Shown: positions 7,508 through 57,534 of the stretch, one piece after another
Layout: each line of letters opens with the position of its first letter
Numbering within the stretch: position 1 is the first letter of the stretch
Origin: an uncultured Flavobacteriaceae bacterium
GTDB lineage: Bacteria > Bacteroidota > Bacteroidia > Flavobacteriales > Flavobacteriaceae
Direction: 5' to 3'
Assembly (NCBI GenBank): GCA_913061125.1
Contig: CAJXUB010000005.1
Coordinates: 1-64,000, forward strand
DNA: 64,000 nucleotides
Translations under genes and position numbers: made by a program
The notes under the pieces: model-generated
What the model was told of the DNA's origin: nothing
Databases searched by the model: none
What the model saw: only the letters and a program-made list of their open reading frames with translations

Positions 7508-8770
7508 ATGGAAACTGTTCTATCCATCAAACAACGCTTTGGAATTATTGGCAACGATACCGGTCTGAATCGCGCCATAGAGAAGGCCATTCAAGTCGCA
7601 CCCACCGATATTTCGGTGTTGGTAACTGGTGAAAGTGGGGTCGGAAAAGAAGTCATTCCAAAAATTATTCACCAACTCTCGCACCGTAAACATGGGAGGT
7701 ACATCGCCGTGAATTGTGGAGCCATCCCAGAAGGTACCATCGACAGCGAATTGTTTGGGCACGAGAAAGGAGCTTTTACAGGAGCAACCCAAACACGTTC
7801 GGGGTATTTTGAAGTGGCCGATGGGGGTACCATTTTTTTGGACGAAGTTGGCGAACTTCCACTAACCACTCAAGTGAGGTTGTTACGCGTATTAGAAAAT
7901 GGGGAATTCATCAAAGTAGGATCCAGCAAGGTTCAAAAAACAAACGTTCGTATTGTGGCGGCAACCAACGTCCACATGTTTGAAGCCATTCGTAAAGAAA
8001 AATTTAGAGAAGATTTATACTATCGATTAAGTACCATCGAAATCCCAATTCCTGCTTTGCGAAAACGTAAAGATGATATTCATCTGTTGTTCCGAAAATT
8101 CTCCAGCGATTTTGCCCTTAAATACAAAATGCCCACCATTCGATTGACAGGGCAAGCGGTTCAGTTAATTCAAAATTACCGTTGGACGGGAAACATCCGT
8201 CAATTGCGCAATGTCGCCGAGCAAATTTCAGTATTAGAATCTACCCGAGAGATTAGCGCCGCAACACTAAAAGGGTACCTGCCAGATATGGGCCCACAGC
8301 TTCCAGCGGTGGTCAAAAAAGAATCTTCAACGAGTGATTTTAGCAACGAGAGGGAAATTTTGTACAAGGTGCTTTTCGATATGAAAAACGATTTGAACGA
8401 CCTAAAAAAACTTACTATGGAGCTGATGCAAAATGACAACCTGAAAGACGTTCAAGAAAAACACGAACACCTGATTCAAAAAATATACAACAACACCCCT
8501 GAACCATCGGAAGTGAACGAAGGGCAAATCTTGGCGTTATCCAATCCGAAGCATGAAAATAATACCGTAGAAATTGTTGAAAATCATTCAACTTATGATT
8601 TCATTGAGGACGTCGAGGAAGAGGAAGAAACATTATCTTTACACGACAAAGAGTTGGAATTGATTAAAAAATCGTTGGAGCGCCACAACGGCAAACGCAA
8701 ATTGGCAGCCGATGAATTGGGAATTTCAGAGCGGACCTTGTACAGAAAAATTAAACAGTATGATCTGTAA
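7508..8770 (+). CDS. Sigma-54 interaction-domain transcriptional activator without receiver domain
   Basis: Bacterial enhancer-binding protein that opens sigma-54 promoters using ATP. The AAA+ domain starts almost at the N terminus. It shows Walker A GESGVGKE (41-48), the sigma-54 contact loop GAFTGA (88-93), Walker B GGTIFLDEVGE (106-116) and the arginine-finger region REDLYYRL. The C terminus is a Fis-type helix-turn-helix ending NGKRKLAADELGISERTLYRKI. Residues from about 265 to 365 form an acidic, low-complexity linker. It has no N-terminal receiver, GAF or PAS domain, so any signal must come through partners or abundance. The 3' end overlaps lptE by 11 bases. Confidence 0.92.
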   Translation: METVLSIKQRFGIIGNDTGLNRAIEKAIQVAPTDISVLVTGESGVGKEVIPKIIHQLSHRKHGRYIAVNCGAIPEGTIDSELFGHEKGAFTGATQTRSGYFEVADGGTIFLDEVGELPLTTQVRLLRVLENGEFIKVGSSKVQKTNVRIVAATNVHMFEAIRKEKFREDLYYRLSTIEIPIPALRKRKDDIHLLFRKFSSDFALKYKMPTIRLTGQAVQLIQNYRWTGNIRQLRNVAEQISVLESTREISAATLKGYLPDMGPQLPAVVKKESSTSDFSNEREILYKVLFDMKNDLNDLKKLTMELMQNDNLKDVQEKHEHLIQKIYNNTPEPSEVNEGQILALSNPKHENNTVEIVENHSTYDFIEDVEEEEETLSLHDKELELIKKSLERHNGKRKLAADELGISERTLYRKIKQYDL

Positions 8771-50721: not shown

Positions 50722-52080
50722 ATGACAATGACAAGAAAATTAAACCTACTTTGCGCAGCGATTGGCTGTTTTTTTGTTCTTACCACCTGTGAAAATGAAC
50801 CGGTTGGTGTTGCATCCGCCGATTCTGATGGTGATGGTATAAACGATTCCACCGATAACTGTGTTAATACTGCCAACCCCAATCAAGACGACACCGACGG
50901 CGATGGCATTGGGGATGCATGCGATACTGCAAATTTCACTTCCTTGCCTTGCGAAAATGGGTTTGCTGGGGTTTACCCCTGCAACAATTATGACCTTATT
51001 GGTTATTTATCATTAAATGACTTGAGTATCAATAATTCTGGCGGAAGCAACCTGAAAGGCAATGATTCTTGGGGCTGGACCGATCCTCAGGACGGCAAAG
51101 AGTACGCTTTGGTGGGGTTGTCTTCACATGCCGCTTTTGTAGATATCAGTGACCCCGATAACTTAAGGTTGGTGGGGGTTTTACCAACCGCAACCAGTGC
51201 CAGCATTTGGAGAGATATTAAGGTGTATCAGAACCACGCTTTTATTGTCAGTGAAGCCAACAACCATGGCATGCAAGTTTTTGATTTGACGCGTTTGCGT
51301 AATGTTGAAAATACCCCGGTCGAATTTGACGCCGATGCACATTTTACAGAATTTGGAAGTGCACATAATATTGTAATTAATGACGATTCGGGATATGCAT
51401 ATGTTGTTGGAACAAATCGAAACGGACCCTTTGGCGGAGGCCCTTTATTCATTAATATTCAGAACCCAACTGCCCCCACTTCAGAAGGCGGCTTTGGCGC
51501 AGGAGGTTATTCGCACGATGCCCAAGTGGTCAATTACAACGGTCCAGACTCAGACTACAACGGAAAAGAAATTCTCATAGGAAGCAACGAAAACGAAGTA
51601 GTCATTGTAGACGTTAGCGATAAAGCAAACCCCGTGACAATTTCTACAGTTGGATATAATAATATTGCCTACACCCACCAAGGTTGGTTCACAGAGGATT
51701 TACGTTATTTTATCGTTGGTGATGAGCTTGATGAACAAAACATAGGCACCAACACACGGACTTTAATTTTTGACTTTAATGATTTGGATAACCCCGAATT
51801 AAGTTTTGAATACATCGCACAAAATACCTCTATTGATCACAACGGCTACACCTTGGGCAACAGTTATTTTTTGGCCAGTTACAGAGCTGGAATGCGAGAA
51901 ATAGACATCACTAACATTGGCAATCAATCCATAAGCGAAATTGGATTTTTTGACACCTATCCAGAAAATGACAATGCCAATTTCAATGGGGTATGGAACG
52001 TTTACCCGTATTTTGAAAGTGGACATATTGTAATTAGCGATATAGAAAGAGGGCTTTTTATCGTCAAAAAAAGCAACTAG
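50722..52080 (+). CDS. Choice-of-anchor B family lipoprotein with LVIVD-type repeats
   Basis: The 452-residue lipoprotein has a signal ending VLTTC (C23). Two TSP type 3 calcium-binding units follow (about 34-68, DSDGDGINDSTDNC and DTDGDGIGDACD). The rest is a repeat domain of the choice-of-anchor B type, with units such as AAFVDISDPDNLRLVGVL, LFINIQNPTAP, VVIVDVSDKANPV and REIDITNIGNQ. These LVIVD repeats probably form a beta-propeller. Location should be the outer membrane, possibly surface-exposed. It is the first gene of an operon with a second propeller lipoprotein, MbnP and MbnH; the next gene begins 9 bases downstream. Function is unknown. An in-frame ATG at 50728 is an alternative start. 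Confidence 0.85.
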   Translation: MTMTRKLNLLCAAIGCFFVLTTCENEPVGVASADSDGDGINDSTDNCVNTANPNQDDTDGDGIGDACDTANFTSLPCENGFAGVYPCNNYDLIGYLSLNDLSINNSGGSNLKGNDSWGWTDPQDGKEYALVGLSSHAAFVDISDPDNLRLVGVLPTATSASIWRDIKVYQNHAFIVSEANNHGMQVFDLTRLRNVENTPVEFDADAHFTEFGSAHNIVINDDSGYAYVVGTNRNGPFGGGPLFINIQNPTAPTSEGGFGAGGYSHDAQVVNYNGPDSDYNGKEILIGSNENEVVIVDVSDKANPVTISTVGYNNIAYTHQGWFTEDLRYFIVGDELDEQNIGTNTRTLIFDFNDLDNPELSFEYIAQNTSIDHNGYTLGNSYFLASYRAGMREIDITNIGNQSISEIGFFDTYPENDNANFNGVWNVYPYFESGHIVISDIERGLFIVKKSN

Positions 52081-52089
52081 AAAACCCCT

Positions 52090-53433
52090 ATGAAAATCAA
52101 ACAAAACATAGTACGATCGTGTTTTGTAACCCTACTGGCTATTGGGCTATCGCGGTGTGAATCAGACAACACCCAAACACCGACCCAAACCCCTGCTGAC
52201 ATCACTTCAATTGTAACGCTTGGAGGAAGCAAAAACGAAAGTGCCCAATCTGTTGTAAGCACCCCCGATGGTGGATTTGCAGTACTGGGGTACACCCAAA
52301 GTATGGATGGCGATATCTTGAATAAATCTAATGAATCATTTAACTACTGGTTGGTTAAATTTGATGCGTCGGGCAACCAACAATGGCAAAAAAACTACGG
52401 CGGTTCCAACGACGATAGAGGGCAATGCATCATTGCGACCAACGACGGCGGATACGCCATTTTGGGAAGCAGCAAAAGCAGTGACGGCGATGCCTCCTCA
52501 AATGCCGGATATAACGATTTTTGGGTTCTGAAACTAACCTCAACAGGTGAAATTTTATGGGAAAAATCCTTTGGATATTCCGGGGCGGATAATGCATTTT
52601 CAATAGCTCAAACCACTGACGGCGGCTACATTTTAAGTGGCGTTTTGGACGTTACGGCCTCCAATGGCGAAGGCAACAACCGATTAATGCAACGCCACGC
52701 TGGTGGCGATTATTGGATCCTCAAACTAAGCCCTTCGGGCGATATGTTGTGGAGTCGGTATTTTGGAGGAACATTTACCGATACTGCATACGATGCCATA
52801 GAATCATCCGATGGTAGTATTTTGGTTGTTGGATCGTCGGATAGTAACGACACGGATGTCAACAACAACAAAGGATCCTATGATTTTTGGGTCCTAAAAC
52901 TTTCTGCTCATGGCGAATTGATGTGGGAAAAATCGTATGGCGGTAGCGAAATAGACGAGGCAAGAGCCATTTCTAAAACTTCCGACGGAAATTTTATAAT
53001 CGTTGGAGATACAAGGAGCAATGATCAAGATGTATCGCAAAACAATGGGGCTGCCGATATTTGGGTCCTAAAAATTAATTCAAATGGTGCAATTCTATGG
53101 GGAAAAAACTATGGCGGCGCTGGATTTGATGGAGTACAGTCGATACACAAAACCCAAAATGACGCCTATATTATTGCAGGAAACTCACGCAGTAACGATG
53201 GAAATTTAACCCAAAACAATGGCCAAAACGATGCCTGGATTTTTAAGATCAACACCACTGGAGAATTACAGTGGCAAACCACTGTTGGAGGAACCCAAGT
53301 GGATCTTTTGACAGATGTTACAACATTATCCAATGGAACGATTATTGCAGTCGGAAAAACAAACAGCAATGATTTAGATGTGAGTCAAAATAAAGGATTT
53401 GACGATGCTTTAATTATCAATTTATCAGAATGA
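52090..53433 (+). CDS. Lipoprotein predicted to form a seven-bladed beta-propeller
   Basis: The 447-residue lipoprotein has a signal ending IGLSRCESD. From about residue 40 it contains repeats of roughly 50-65 residues of the form DGGY-ILG-S-SNDGD, then W-LKL---G--LW-K-YGG. Six complete W-K-G-W-GG units are visible (YWLVKFDASGNQQW, FWVLKLTSTGEILW, YWILKLSPSGDMLW, FWVLKLSAHGELMW, IWVLKINSNGAILW, AWIFKINTTGELQW). A final strand (ALIINLSE) may close with the N-terminal IVTLGGS strand to make a seventh blade. I know similar repeats in T9SS and delta-60-like proteins. Here there is no sorting domain, only the lipid anchor. The ligand is unknown. It is 3 bases upstream of mbnP. Confidence 0.8.
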   Translation: MKIKQNIVRSCFVTLLAIGLSRCESDNTQTPTQTPADITSIVTLGGSKNESAQSVVSTPDGGFAVLGYTQSMDGDILNKSNESFNYWLVKFDASGNQQWQKNYGGSNDDRGQCIIATNDGGYAILGSSKSSDGDASSNAGYNDFWVLKLTSTGEILWEKSFGYSGADNAFSIAQTTDGGYILSGVLDVTASNGEGNNRLMQRHAGGDYWILKLSPSGDMLWSRYFGGTFTDTAYDAIESSDGSILVVGSSDSNDTDVNNNKGSYDFWVLKLSAHGELMWEKSYGGSEIDEARAISKTSDGNFIIVGDTRSNDQDVSQNNGAADIWVLKINSNGAILWGKNYGGAGFDGVQSIHKTQNDAYIIAGNSRSNDGNLTQNNGQNDAWIFKINTTGELQWQTTVGGTQVDLLTDVTTLSNGTIIAVGKTNSNDLDVSQNKGFDDALIINLSE

Positions 53434-53436
53434 AAC

Positions 53437-54204
53437 ATGAGGTATAAACTCCTTTTTTTTATGCTAACAATCGTATTTCTGAGTTGCGAATCTGATCAAG
53501 ATGATGAGCGGTCTTCAACTGCTGTTCAATTTCGATTTGAGCACCATTGGGACAACATTGGCGTTAGTAATGCAGATTTCAACAGTATAAAATTCACCAA
53601 TGCATTTGGGAACAATTTGAGTATAGAACGGCTTAGATATCTCATTTCAAGAATAACATTTACAAAACCCTCTGGAGAGTCCCTAGTTTTGGACGGCTAT
53701 AAATTAATTGACCTGAGTGAAAATGAATCCCTACAATTTACGACTGAAACTCCCATTGATTTGGGGACATACACCAACGTTAGTTTTATTTTTGGTTTTA
53801 CGAACGAGGACAATACGGATGGAAGCTACGCCGATTTAAATTCTACCTCATGGAATGTCCCTGCCATGCTGGGCGGGGGCTATCATTACATGCAATTGGA
53901 CGGCAAGTTTTTAAACACTCTAAATTCTGAAGCGGGCTATAACTACCATGCCATCCGAGCGGCAGACAATCCTGGTGCTAATCCGACCTTTCCTCAAGAT
54001 ACTTTTTTTCGAGTTGATTTGGGTGAAATCTCCATATCTGACAACTCCACAATTACAATTGCTATGAATATTGCCCAGTGGTTTAAAGACCCTCATCTTT
54101 GGGATTTAAACGTTTACAATCAAATGCTGATGCCCAATAGCGCTGCTCAAATTTTGATGTATCAAAACGGGCAAAATGCATTTAATTTGGTGTCTGTTGA
54201 ATAA
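53437..54204 (+). CDS. MbnP-like copper-binding lipoprotein
   Basis: The 255-residue lipoprotein (lipid Cys C17, VFLSCESD) belongs to the MbnP family. Its core motifs are ERLRYLISRITF, LIDLSENESL, DLGTYTNVSFIFG and GGGYHYMQLDGKF (147-159). MbnP proteins bind copper, and in the known system a tryptophan is converted to kynurenine by the di-haem enzyme MbnH. The segment in front of GGGYHYM normally carries tryptophans (M-W-x-W type); here the nearest is W139 (TSWNVPAML). Other tryptophans are W38, W215 and W222. It is directly upstream of an MbnH-like gene. Confidence 0.85.
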   Translation: MRYKLLFFMLTIVFLSCESDQDDERSSTAVQFRFEHHWDNIGVSNADFNSIKFTNAFGNNLSIERLRYLISRITFTKPSGESLVLDGYKLIDLSENESLQFTTETPIDLGTYTNVSFIFGFTNEDNTDGSYADLNSTSWNVPAMLGGGYHYMQLDGKFLNTLNSEAGYNYHAIRAADNPGANPTFPQDTFFRVDLGEISISDNSTITIAMNIAQWFKDPHLWDLNVYNQMLMPNSAAQILMYQNGQNAFNLVSVE

Positions 54205-54208
54205 CCGT

Positions 54209-55267
54209 TTGAAACATATCGTCCTAGTACTAATCACTTGTTTGTCTTGCTCTACAGAAGACACAAACGGAGGTCAATATGTTCCAAATCCAGTAACCCT
54301 CAATATTCCGCAAGTTTTCGAAGGACGGATATTACCCCCGGTAATCCCAACCAATAATCCCCTTACACAAGAGGGCATTGCGTTGGGGAAAAAGCTGTTT
54401 TTCGAAAAACGATTATCTGCTAACAACACGCAGGCCTGTGCCAACTGTCATAACCCAAACAAATCCTTTACCGACGGGCGAAGGTATAGTGTAGGAATTG
54501 ATGCAATTCAAGGAACAAGAAATGCAATGCCGTTGTTCAATTTGGCTTGGAATTACGACGATACATTTTTTTGGGATGGGCGTGAATTGGGCTTGGAGCG
54601 ACAAAGTTTTGACCCCATCACAAACCCCATTGAAATGCACGAAACCTTGGAAAATGTTGTGCAAAAACTTCAACAAGACCCCATGTATCCTGAACTTTTT
54701 CAACGGGCCTTTGGCACCGCTTCCATCGATTCGGTACTCATTAGTAAAGCCTTGGCGCAGTTTGAACGAACCATCATTTCAGCCAACTCAAAATTTGACC
54801 GATACCTTCTAGGCGAAGCCACACTAAATACACAAGAACTCGAGGGGTTTAATGTGTTTATGGACGAAAATCGAGGAGATTGTTTTCATTGCCACGGTAG
54901 CGAGAATAACCCGCTTTGGACCGATAATAAATTTCACAACAACGGTTTGGATGCCACATCAACCGATTTGGGGTTGGCTATTGCCACAGGCGACCCTAAC
55001 GACAATGGTAAATTCCGAACACCATCTCTACGAAATTTGGCCTTTACAGCGCCCTACATGCACGACGGCAGATTTGAAACATTGGATGACGTAATCAACC
55101 ACTACAGCGAGGGGCTACAAGACTCGCCCACCATTGATCCATTGATGAAAAAAGTTGCACAAGGTGGGGTTCAGCTGTCAAACACGGATAAAGCCAGTCT
55201 CAAGGCGTTTTTGCTATCACTTTCAGACTACAATTTCATTACTGACCCCCAATATTCAAACCCATAA
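54209..55267 (+). CDS. MbnH-like di-haem cytochrome c peroxidase family protein
   Basis: The protein has two c-type haem motifs, CANCH (77-81) and CFHCH (225-229), plus SFTDGRRYSVG, FFWDGRELGLERQ, DPITNPIEMHE and APYMHDGRF. It is therefore in the bacterial di-haem peroxidase/MauG/MbnH family and, by its position, is the MbnH partner of the MbnP-like protein. It should act in the periplasm, anchored by a lipid (ITCLSC). An ATG at 54176 inside mbnP is the first possible start and would give a longer n-region. A TTG at 54209, four bases after the mbnP stop, gives a compact signal MKHIVLVLITCLSC. I prefer it, with moderate certainty. Confidence 0.88.
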   Translation: MKHIVLVLITCLSCSTEDTNGGQYVPNPVTLNIPQVFEGRILPPVIPTNNPLTQEGIALGKKLFFEKRLSANNTQACANCHNPNKSFTDGRRYSVGIDAIQGTRNAMPLFNLAWNYDDTFFWDGRELGLERQSFDPITNPIEMHETLENVVQKLQQDPMYPELFQRAFGTASIDSVLISKALAQFERTIISANSKFDRYLLGEATLNTQELEGFNVFMDENRGDCFHCHGSENNPLWTDNKFHNNGLDATSTDLGLAIATGDPNDNGKFRTPSLRNLAFTAPYMHDGRFETLDDVINHYSEGLQDSPTIDPLMKKVAQGGVQLSNTDKASLKAFLLSLSDYNFITDPQYSNP

Positions 55268-55283: not shown

Positions 55284-55332
55284 CATACGCTAATATAATG
55301 TTAGGGTATGGCAATATAATCTTGTTATGTTG

Positions 55333-55340
55333 TATATTTG
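55333..55340 (+). promoter_or_regulatory. Predicted -7 element (TATATTTG) of the suf operon
   Basis: TATATTTG predicts a transcript start near 55345, after the first open-frame ATG (55327) and before the real sufA-like start at 55375. No good -33 match was found. Confidence 0.55.
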
Positions 55341-57180: not shown

Positions 57181-57534
57181 ATGAGAAAAACAGTAGCGAT
57201 AATTTTATTTATTATAACCACCTCATGTAAATCCTCATCCGATGGTCTAACCGTTTTGGAAGGAAGCTATATTTACTTTGATGATGCTGCAGTTTTACAA
57301 ACTAAAAATGAAATTTATGGGGTGTATTTAACCGAAAAAGCCCTAGAGCTCAGTACAAAAGCAGAATCCTACAAAACCAATACAGACGACTTTATTTATG
57401 TCAAAGTGAAAGGAATTATTTCAACCCAAAAGGACGAAAAAATCCTGTGGGATAAAAAACTTGAAATTGTTGAAATTGAATCAATCGCTTCAAAAAAAGA
57501 AATTAAAAACACGCTAATATTAGGATCAAATTAA
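57181..57534 (+). CDS. Small lipoprotein of unknown function inside the suf operon
   Basis: The 117-residue protein has a lipoprotein signal (IIFITTSCKS region, C16). Two short beta-rich halves follow: [20 protein letters not shown] and [20 protein letters not shown]. The second half resembles a small OB-like or NlpE C-terminal-type module, but this is only a visual likeness. It is 11 bases after sufB and 1 base before sufC, so it is certainly co-expressed. As a periplasm-facing lipoprotein it is unlikely to take part directly in cytoplasmic cluster assembly. Confidence 0.75.

Follow-up and report, generated by a model that had tools for sequence, protein, structure and literature searches.

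The subject of this study is a group of four adjacent genes, here named A, B, P, and H, in the window, a 64,000-nucleotide stretch of contig CAJXUB010000005.1 from an uncultured Flavobacteriaceae bacterium. They combine two β-propeller proteins (A and B) with a pair related to MbnP and MbnH (P and H, together MbnPH), and the coupling of the propellers to MbnPH is well supported by the comparison of genomes described below. We tentatively read the four products, with a confidence that falls just short of even, as a surface metal-capture unit, probably for copper, whose scaffold propeller would use either a histidine site of its own or MbnP; the metal and the chemistry are proposed by analogy. 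Of the 199 genomes sampled from the family, 69, or about one in three, carry the unit, which gives the widespread MbnP/MbnH pair protein partners.

All four genes are located on the plus strand. Gene A (50722..52080) encodes a choice-of-anchor B/LVIVD propeller of 452 amino acids (aa), a probable lipoprotein with N-terminal thrombospondin type 3 repeats. Gene B (52090..53433) encodes a 447-aa propeller with W-K-G-W repeats, also a probable lipoprotein and a relative of the CylK propeller. They are followed by gene P (53437..54204) for an MbnP-like lipoprotein of a divergent subclass (255 aa) and gene H (54209..55267) for an MbnH/MauG-like di-heme lipoprotein (352 aa). The gaps between the genes are 9, 3, and 4 bases if H starts at TTG 54209; the alternative start, ATG 54176, would lead to an overlap with P. 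The group is preceded by thiL on the minus strand and followed by sufA and sufB. The original prediction, made from the letters of the window, had described four consecutive genes with these gaps between thiL and suf, which the open reading frames (ORFs) confirm, and its family calls are borne out by the matches to TIGR04312 for A, the CylK propeller for B, PF20243 for P, and PF03150 together with the MbnH structure 6e1c for H.

To describe the distribution of these genes we used 199 genomes from the family of the window, nearly one per genus. MbnP (PF20243) is present in 100 of them, and 111 MbnP loci were examined, that is, 110 fetched loci and the window, with a contig-end fragment in genome G108 not included. 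In 68 loci, each from a different genome, one to four A genes are followed on one strand by B, P, and H, and thus the propeller genes, which the original prediction needed to be more than rare neighbors of mbnPH in relatives, stand in front of the pair in the larger part of the loci. The median gaps A-B, B-P, and P-H, measured on the longest ORFs, are 9, 4, and 5 bases. The remaining 43 loci contain P-H without A-B, one of them (locus L110) only through a contig end; L110 is PH-only in this tally and is counted below with the ABPH type. Linked genomes number 69 when G108, where the genes are split by contig ends, is included. Further, 80 named loci were chosen by a profile of the window-type MbnP subclass; 79 of these show the A-B-P-H order and the 80th begins at B. 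The named carriers include Algibacter, Winogradskyella, Formosa, Hyunsoonleella, Bizionia, and Lacinutrix.

Gene A was found in 115 of the 199 genomes (113 above the cut-off), 73 with and 42 without MbnP. In 69 of the 73 genomes holding both, A-B and PH are linked; they lie apart in G066, G157, G160, and G196. This gives 46 A genomes without linked PH (42 without MbnP and four with MbnP elsewhere), and a locus was examined in 39 of them; the other seven include three with weak A matches. B lies directly behind A in 37 of the 39 loci, L146 and L283 showing no B, and these 37 A-B-only loci have the same arrangement as the four-gene loci, with thiL in 34 and suf in 36. As judged from gene order, the A-B pair is shown to be the core of the locus, and MbnPH has joined it behind B in most carriers. 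Hence the propellers are not dedicated to MbnPH, as had originally been supposed. The two pairs also never meet in the samples from outside the family, where 20 MbnP/MbnH loci lack both A and B, and 20 A loci lack B, P, and H alike. Beyond thiL in L153, an A locus without MbnPH, there is a weak H-like match (130 bits).

The PH-only loci have neighbors of another kind, a protein of about 128 aa with a CNGKC motif in 39 of 42 loci and a protein of about 333 aa with a CDLCSC stretch in 31 of 42. No members of these two clusters were found in the 69 AB-linked loci, so A-B appears to replace another partner set. Pfam and NCBIfam returned no family for the representatives L140:7430-7816 (128 aa, CNGKC) and L137:9794-10795 (333 aa, CDLCSC); L256 encodes a protein of similar appearance (7790-8743) that matches Phenol_MetA_deg below the cut-off. 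Ten genomes contain both kinds of MbnPH, which argues against simple redundancy. PH alone does not occupy the thiL-suf slot in any of the 42 PH-only loci. The nearest case is L138 (1-9809), in which sufA and thiL face each other with no gene between them, an empty slot, and a canonical PH pair lies about 5.4 kb from thiL on the side away from suf.

Two lineages of MbnPH are found behind B. In trees without outgroups, the P proteins of 61 of the 68 linked loci (the ABPH type) form one clade, and the same holds for H in the 60 of these loci placed in the tree, L089 being omitted from the H trees for its short H. In the other seven (L034, L036, L037, L115, L127, L132, and L134) both P and H belong to a second clade, nested among the canonical PH-only pairs. 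The branch separating the two MbnPH clades has a support of 100, with out-of-family MbnH on both sides; the outgroup tree, which combines 23 of the 61 ABPH rows with 19 MbnH from other families, other classes, and the rest of the phylum, is a quick one and gave long-branch warnings for some outgroup rows. Both types stand immediately behind B, with a median B-P gap on the longest ORFs of 4 bases in the main type and 2 in the second. Since two deeply separated lineages occur at the same point, the link between A-B and MbnPH probably arose twice, as far as these trees can tell. Trees of the flanking genes were built from ThiL, SufA, and SufB and omit L290 as well as L034 and L127, both of which lack suf in the stretch examined; one of them also required thiL. 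On the flank tree the second type is scattered, and its placement in one clade is rejected (five rows, p 7e-56, likelihood gap 1478), so the operon types have moved between genomes.

A further sign of coupling comes from gene B itself. Arg309 (in GDTRS; 53014..53016, plus strand) is present in all 68 PH-linked B proteins and in none of the 37 B proteins without adjacent PH, and the combination of His142, His166, and His168 is present in 37/37 PH-less loci and 0/68 PH-linked ones. The separation is complete, that is, the B residues agree with the presence of PH in 105 of 105 loci (a first comparison took 19 PH-less loci and the extended one 37), and the seven loci with the second MbnPH lineage show the PH-linked pattern. 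All 105 proteins share a fourth histidine, His203 (52696..52698, plus strand). The presence of PH changes 10 times on the flank tree, which covers 102 loci, and the Arg309 signature tracks it in each of the six independent pairs located on branches with support (sign test, p 0.031). We regard the match as support for coupling, not as proof of it, but with two MbnPH lineages behind B and the residue agreement the partnership proposed in the original prediction is supported, and the association is stronger than that prediction could know, its copper and oxidation claims remaining conditional.

Several points weigh against a functional coupling. Many genomes contain A-B without MbnPH, and the adjacency of A-B and PH was seen in one slot (thiL-suf) of one family only, A and MbnP not being adjacent in the outside-family samples; the outgroup tree that separates the two lineages is a quick one, as said above. 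In the B tree, constructed from 26 of the 37 AB and 27 of the 61 ABPH rows with the signature columns removed beforehand, a single branch (support 90) separates the PH-less B proteins from the others, and so the residue switch represents one change, not many. For B alone, placement of the second type in one clade is not rejected (approximately unbiased (AU) test, p 0.75). Whole-operon exchange or linked transfer could preserve the match between B and PH without a common function. Thus the genes could simply be neighbors: recombination in the conserved flanks would swap the thiL-suf slot as one piece, with A-B and MbnPH sharing no function. The mosaic flank tree and the AU result would agree with this, as would the conservation of thiL and suf around the locus, which is about as high as that of the locus genes. 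We nevertheless consider it decidedly unlikely in view of the gaps of a few bases, the two MbnPH lineages at the same point, the complete match of the B residues, and the fact that PH alone was not seen in the slot in any of the 42 PH-only loci, L138 coming nearest.

Two lines of argument were tried and dropped. Adjacency alone was not accepted as functional proof, since thiL and suf show much the same degree of conservation as the genes between them. Movement of the second MbnPH cassette without A-B is unsupported in view of the AU result on B, though the flank genes reject one clade.

The product of gene P matches PF20243 with 86.7 bits, above the cut-off of 27, and its fold is that of MbnP (7l6g; Z 15.6, root-mean-square deviation 3.6, 210 residues aligned), the next entry having Z 5.0. 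No NCBIfam family matched it at E 0.05, TIGR04052 included. Canonical P proteins of the PH-only loci carry an M-x-W-x-W motif, with Met in 97% and WxW in 42 of 42, followed further on by an invariant His aligned with position 171 of P in the window. We take the first Trp of WxW to be the residue converted to kynurenine by oxidation, and the Met before the motif and the His further on to be possible copper ligands of canonical MbnP. In the window the first position is Trp139 (53851..53853, plus strand), the second is Val141, and the preceding Met is absent. Compared with canonical copper-binding MbnP, P thus lacks the second Trp and the Met, and for this reason we class it no more closely than as a divergent member of PF20243.

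The 61 divergent P proteins of the slot have WxV in 42, WxW in 12, and FxV in 7 cases, and the Met is absent from them. Their invariant residues include Trp222 and His150 (in GGGYH; 53884..53886, plus strand), a position with mostly Lys or Arg in canonical P, and His171 (53947-53949, plus strand) is invariant in divergent and canonical P. Among all 68 AB-linked P proteins the first Trp is retained in 61 and is Phe in seven; the seven retain Trp38, Trp215, and Trp222. To judge from these residues, the altered site may have more in common with the two-His site of MopE and CorA. By analogy with the canonical protein, P would bind Cu(I), and its Trp139 would be converted to kynurenine via H.

The product of gene H matches PF03150, and its best match in the PDB is MbnH (6e1c). 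Its score against TIGR04039 (270 bits) is below the cut-off of 363, so we name it MbnH/MauG-like and do not assign it to TIGR04039. Its two CxxCH heme sites are encoded at 54437..54451 and 54881-54895 on the plus strand, and a Tyr codon at 55103-55105 (plus strand) aligns with a Tyr of 6e1c. We take this Tyr to be at the axial heme-ligand position of MauG and MbnH, and a conserved Trp to be the inter-heme Trp. Both CxxCH sites, the Trp, and the Tyr are invariant in 68 of 68 H proteins, as expected of MauG-like di-heme proteins. In L037 (8969-12384) a two-component pair, consisting of a histidine kinase with a propeller and a LuxR-type response regulator, is inserted between P and H.

These data bear on two further explanations. 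The first retains the partnership and gives up copper: the unit could hold another metal, or H could be a surface peroxidase or oxidase with P as its redox partner. The loss of the second Trp and the Met from the P subclass of the window, and of the kynurenine-position Trp from seven of 68 P proteins, count for it and against a canonical copper site, and it would also suit the propellers, since the top Foldseek match of A is a hydrolase with a metal centre and B is related to CylK. We rate it as possible though somewhat unlikely, because P has the fold of MbnP, the first Trp is kept in most P proteins, and H retains its Trp, Tyr, and heme residues. The second explanation, offered in the original prediction, makes the propellers additional substrates, with H oxidizing A or B at Trp or at other positions. 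Many Trp residues are indeed conserved in A and B, and H is kept alongside the seven P proteins with Phe at the kynurenine position. However, we found no Trp of A or B that is conserved only with PH. The Trp residues of both propellers are about as conserved in A-B loci without PH and hence look structural, and the seven Phe-type P proteins have three other Trp residues; this explanation is therefore not favored and seems highly improbable to us.

The propeller encoded by gene A matches TIGR04312 (choice_anch_B) with 542 bits, above the cut-off of 100, as well as TSP_3 and LVIVD models. Its AlphaFold model has a mean predicted local distance difference test score of 90.2 and shows a propeller, predicted to be seven-bladed. 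Four histidines, His215 (51364..51366), His265 (51514-51516), His319 (51676-51678), and His373 (51838-51840), all on the plus strand, occur in four successive blades of the model, each where the first strand begins or immediately ahead of it. They are conserved at 98-100% in loci with and without PH alike (the comparison omits L146) and could form a metal-binding ring in the channel.

The top Foldseek match of A is 5hrm, a haloalkylphosphorus hydrolase (E 8.3e-12), and the comparison with propellers of the 5hrm/5ioj type gives Z 30.3 over 331 residues, the longest alignment among the rows shown. As a fold match for A, 5hrm is tied by Z with many WD40 propellers, another point against a metal role. 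All 984 compared chains have Z of at least 8, so the propeller fold alone says little about the function of A. His215 pairs with residue 389 of 5ioj, presumably a metal ligand, in an HMM alignment whose match is non-significant. The title of the paper on 5hrm refers to a seven-bladed propeller with a binuclear metal centre.

Gene A is amplified in part of the loci. At least two tandem A ORFs are present in 25 of the 68 four-gene loci, although one copy in L053 looks split in two. L055, L060, L082, and L085 have four A genes in tandem, and the N-terminal region is longer in some of these copies. The A protein of L146, which has no B partner, ends in a tail that by eye resembles a type IX secretion sorting signal.

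For B, the Pfam and NCBIfam searches returned only sub-cut-off matches to SBBP and delta-60 repeat models, and its best match among solved structures is the CylK propeller (phmmer, 9.3e-26).

The original prediction ascribed lipoprotein signals to all four products. Judged by eye in the window, the lipoboxes are clear in P and H, but the one of A is weak (LTTC) and that of B atypical (LSRC, with Arg at -1). A simple lipobox rule applied to the relatives detected the signal in 65/68 B, 66/68 P, and 66/69 H proteins but only in 55/107 A proteins, which is a further weakness of the surface assignment of A. In Bacteroidetes the signal for surface export of lipoproteins consists of acidic residues behind the lipid-bearing Cys (PMC5080379). 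At least two acidic residues at positions +3 to +6 were found in 58/66 P, 51/65 B, 29/55 A, and 36/66 H lipobox-positive proteins, and in 42 of 236 other lipobox ORFs of the loci. This points to a location of the products at the outer surface, P and B giving the clearest signal.

Taking these observations together, we propose that the four genes form one operon type of a locus that is kept between thiL and suf by many Flavobacteriaceae and is exchanged horizontally. A would hold metal in the four-His ring of its propeller channel. B would be a scaffold that carries its own His site in loci without MbnPH; in PH-linked loci such as the window, the job of the metal site would pass to MbnP docked on B, with Arg309 of B as a candidate contact with P. 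MbnH would mature MbnP by oxidizing Trp139, or a different residue in those proteins that have Phe at this position. Analogy with MbnP, MopE, and CorA makes copper the most likely metal. In its most detailed form, which we regard as unlikely to be right in full, the proposal describes an exchangeable metal centre: one allele of the locus would have the four-His site of B (His142/166/168/203), and the two others would lack this site and have a docking Arg and one of the two distantly related MbnP/MbnH cassettes providing a kynurenine-copper site, beside the His-ring protein A, which possibly hands metal on. If the proposed reading is right, its three alleles allow a natural comparison of how a copper site made by oxidation is coupled to a scaffold at the surface, and a metal role is suggested for the choice-of-anchor B family.

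The proposed unit resembles several known systems in part. It shares with the MbnP/MbnH pair of methanobactin and other operons (TIGR04052/TIGR04039, PF20243; 7l6g, 6e1c) the fold of P, a di-heme H with 6e1c as best match, and the adjoining genes, but differs in the WxV site, the additional His150, the absence of Met before the motif, and the junction with two propellers; further, P of the window matches no NCBIfam model and its H scores under the TIGR04039 cut-off. Compared with the 42 canonical MbnPH loci of the same family, the gene families are the same, whereas the canonical loci have WxW throughout, lie outside the thiL-suf slot, and have the CNGKC and CDLCSC proteins instead of A-B. In methanotrophs, MopE/SACCP and CorA/CorB are described as a surface-associated protein whose copper site contains kynurenine, together with a di-heme partner that is co-transcribed (PMC3912023). 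Their two-His site, compared by description only, is a possible analog of His150 and His171 of P, and no propellers are mentioned in the text consulted.

The haloalkylphosphorus hydrolase/phosphotriesterase of Sphingobium TCM1 (5hrm, 5ioj) is, like the model of A, a seven-bladed propeller; its identity to A is 14-16%, and a single His is paired with it, in the non-significant alignment. A is not known to act as a hydrolase. The CylK propeller (7ron, 7fh6-8) is a sequence relative of B. Unlike B, which consists of a propeller alone and has a lipoprotein-like signal, CylK acts as a biosynthetic enzyme and has an additional domain. Our literature search returned no report joining these propellers to MbnPH; the key MbnP/MbnH papers were outside its reach, and a prior mention is possible. 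One MbnP/MbnH paper reportedly includes a neighborhood analysis.

The boundary between the locus and suf contains an element noted by eye between H and sufA (55290..55340, plus strand), a near-palindrome, CTAATATAATGTTAG, followed by a -7-like box, TATATTTG. A similar near-palindrome followed by a box of this type is present upstream of sufA in the eight loci inspected (the window, L032, L065, L067, L071, L075, L142, and L147). The elements occur with and without MbnPH, two A-B-only loci being among the eight. This suggests that suf has its own promoter, and in the family of the window the near-palindrome and the box may serve suf as operator and promoter. Upstream of A, a TAnnTTTG box was found by k-mer counts in 37 of 87 sequences versus 10.6 expected. 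No promoter or operator shared by A and suf was seen, in that the sufA palindrome was not noticed by eye in 14 A-upstream sequences; no dedicated motif search was made.

Finally, the suf operon of the window contains, between sufB and sufC, a gene for a small lipoprotein-like protein of 117 aa (57181-57534), which matches no Pfam or NCBIfam family above the cut-off. Members of its cluster are present in 56 of 62 ABPH loci, three of seven second-type loci, and two of 20 A-B-only loci.

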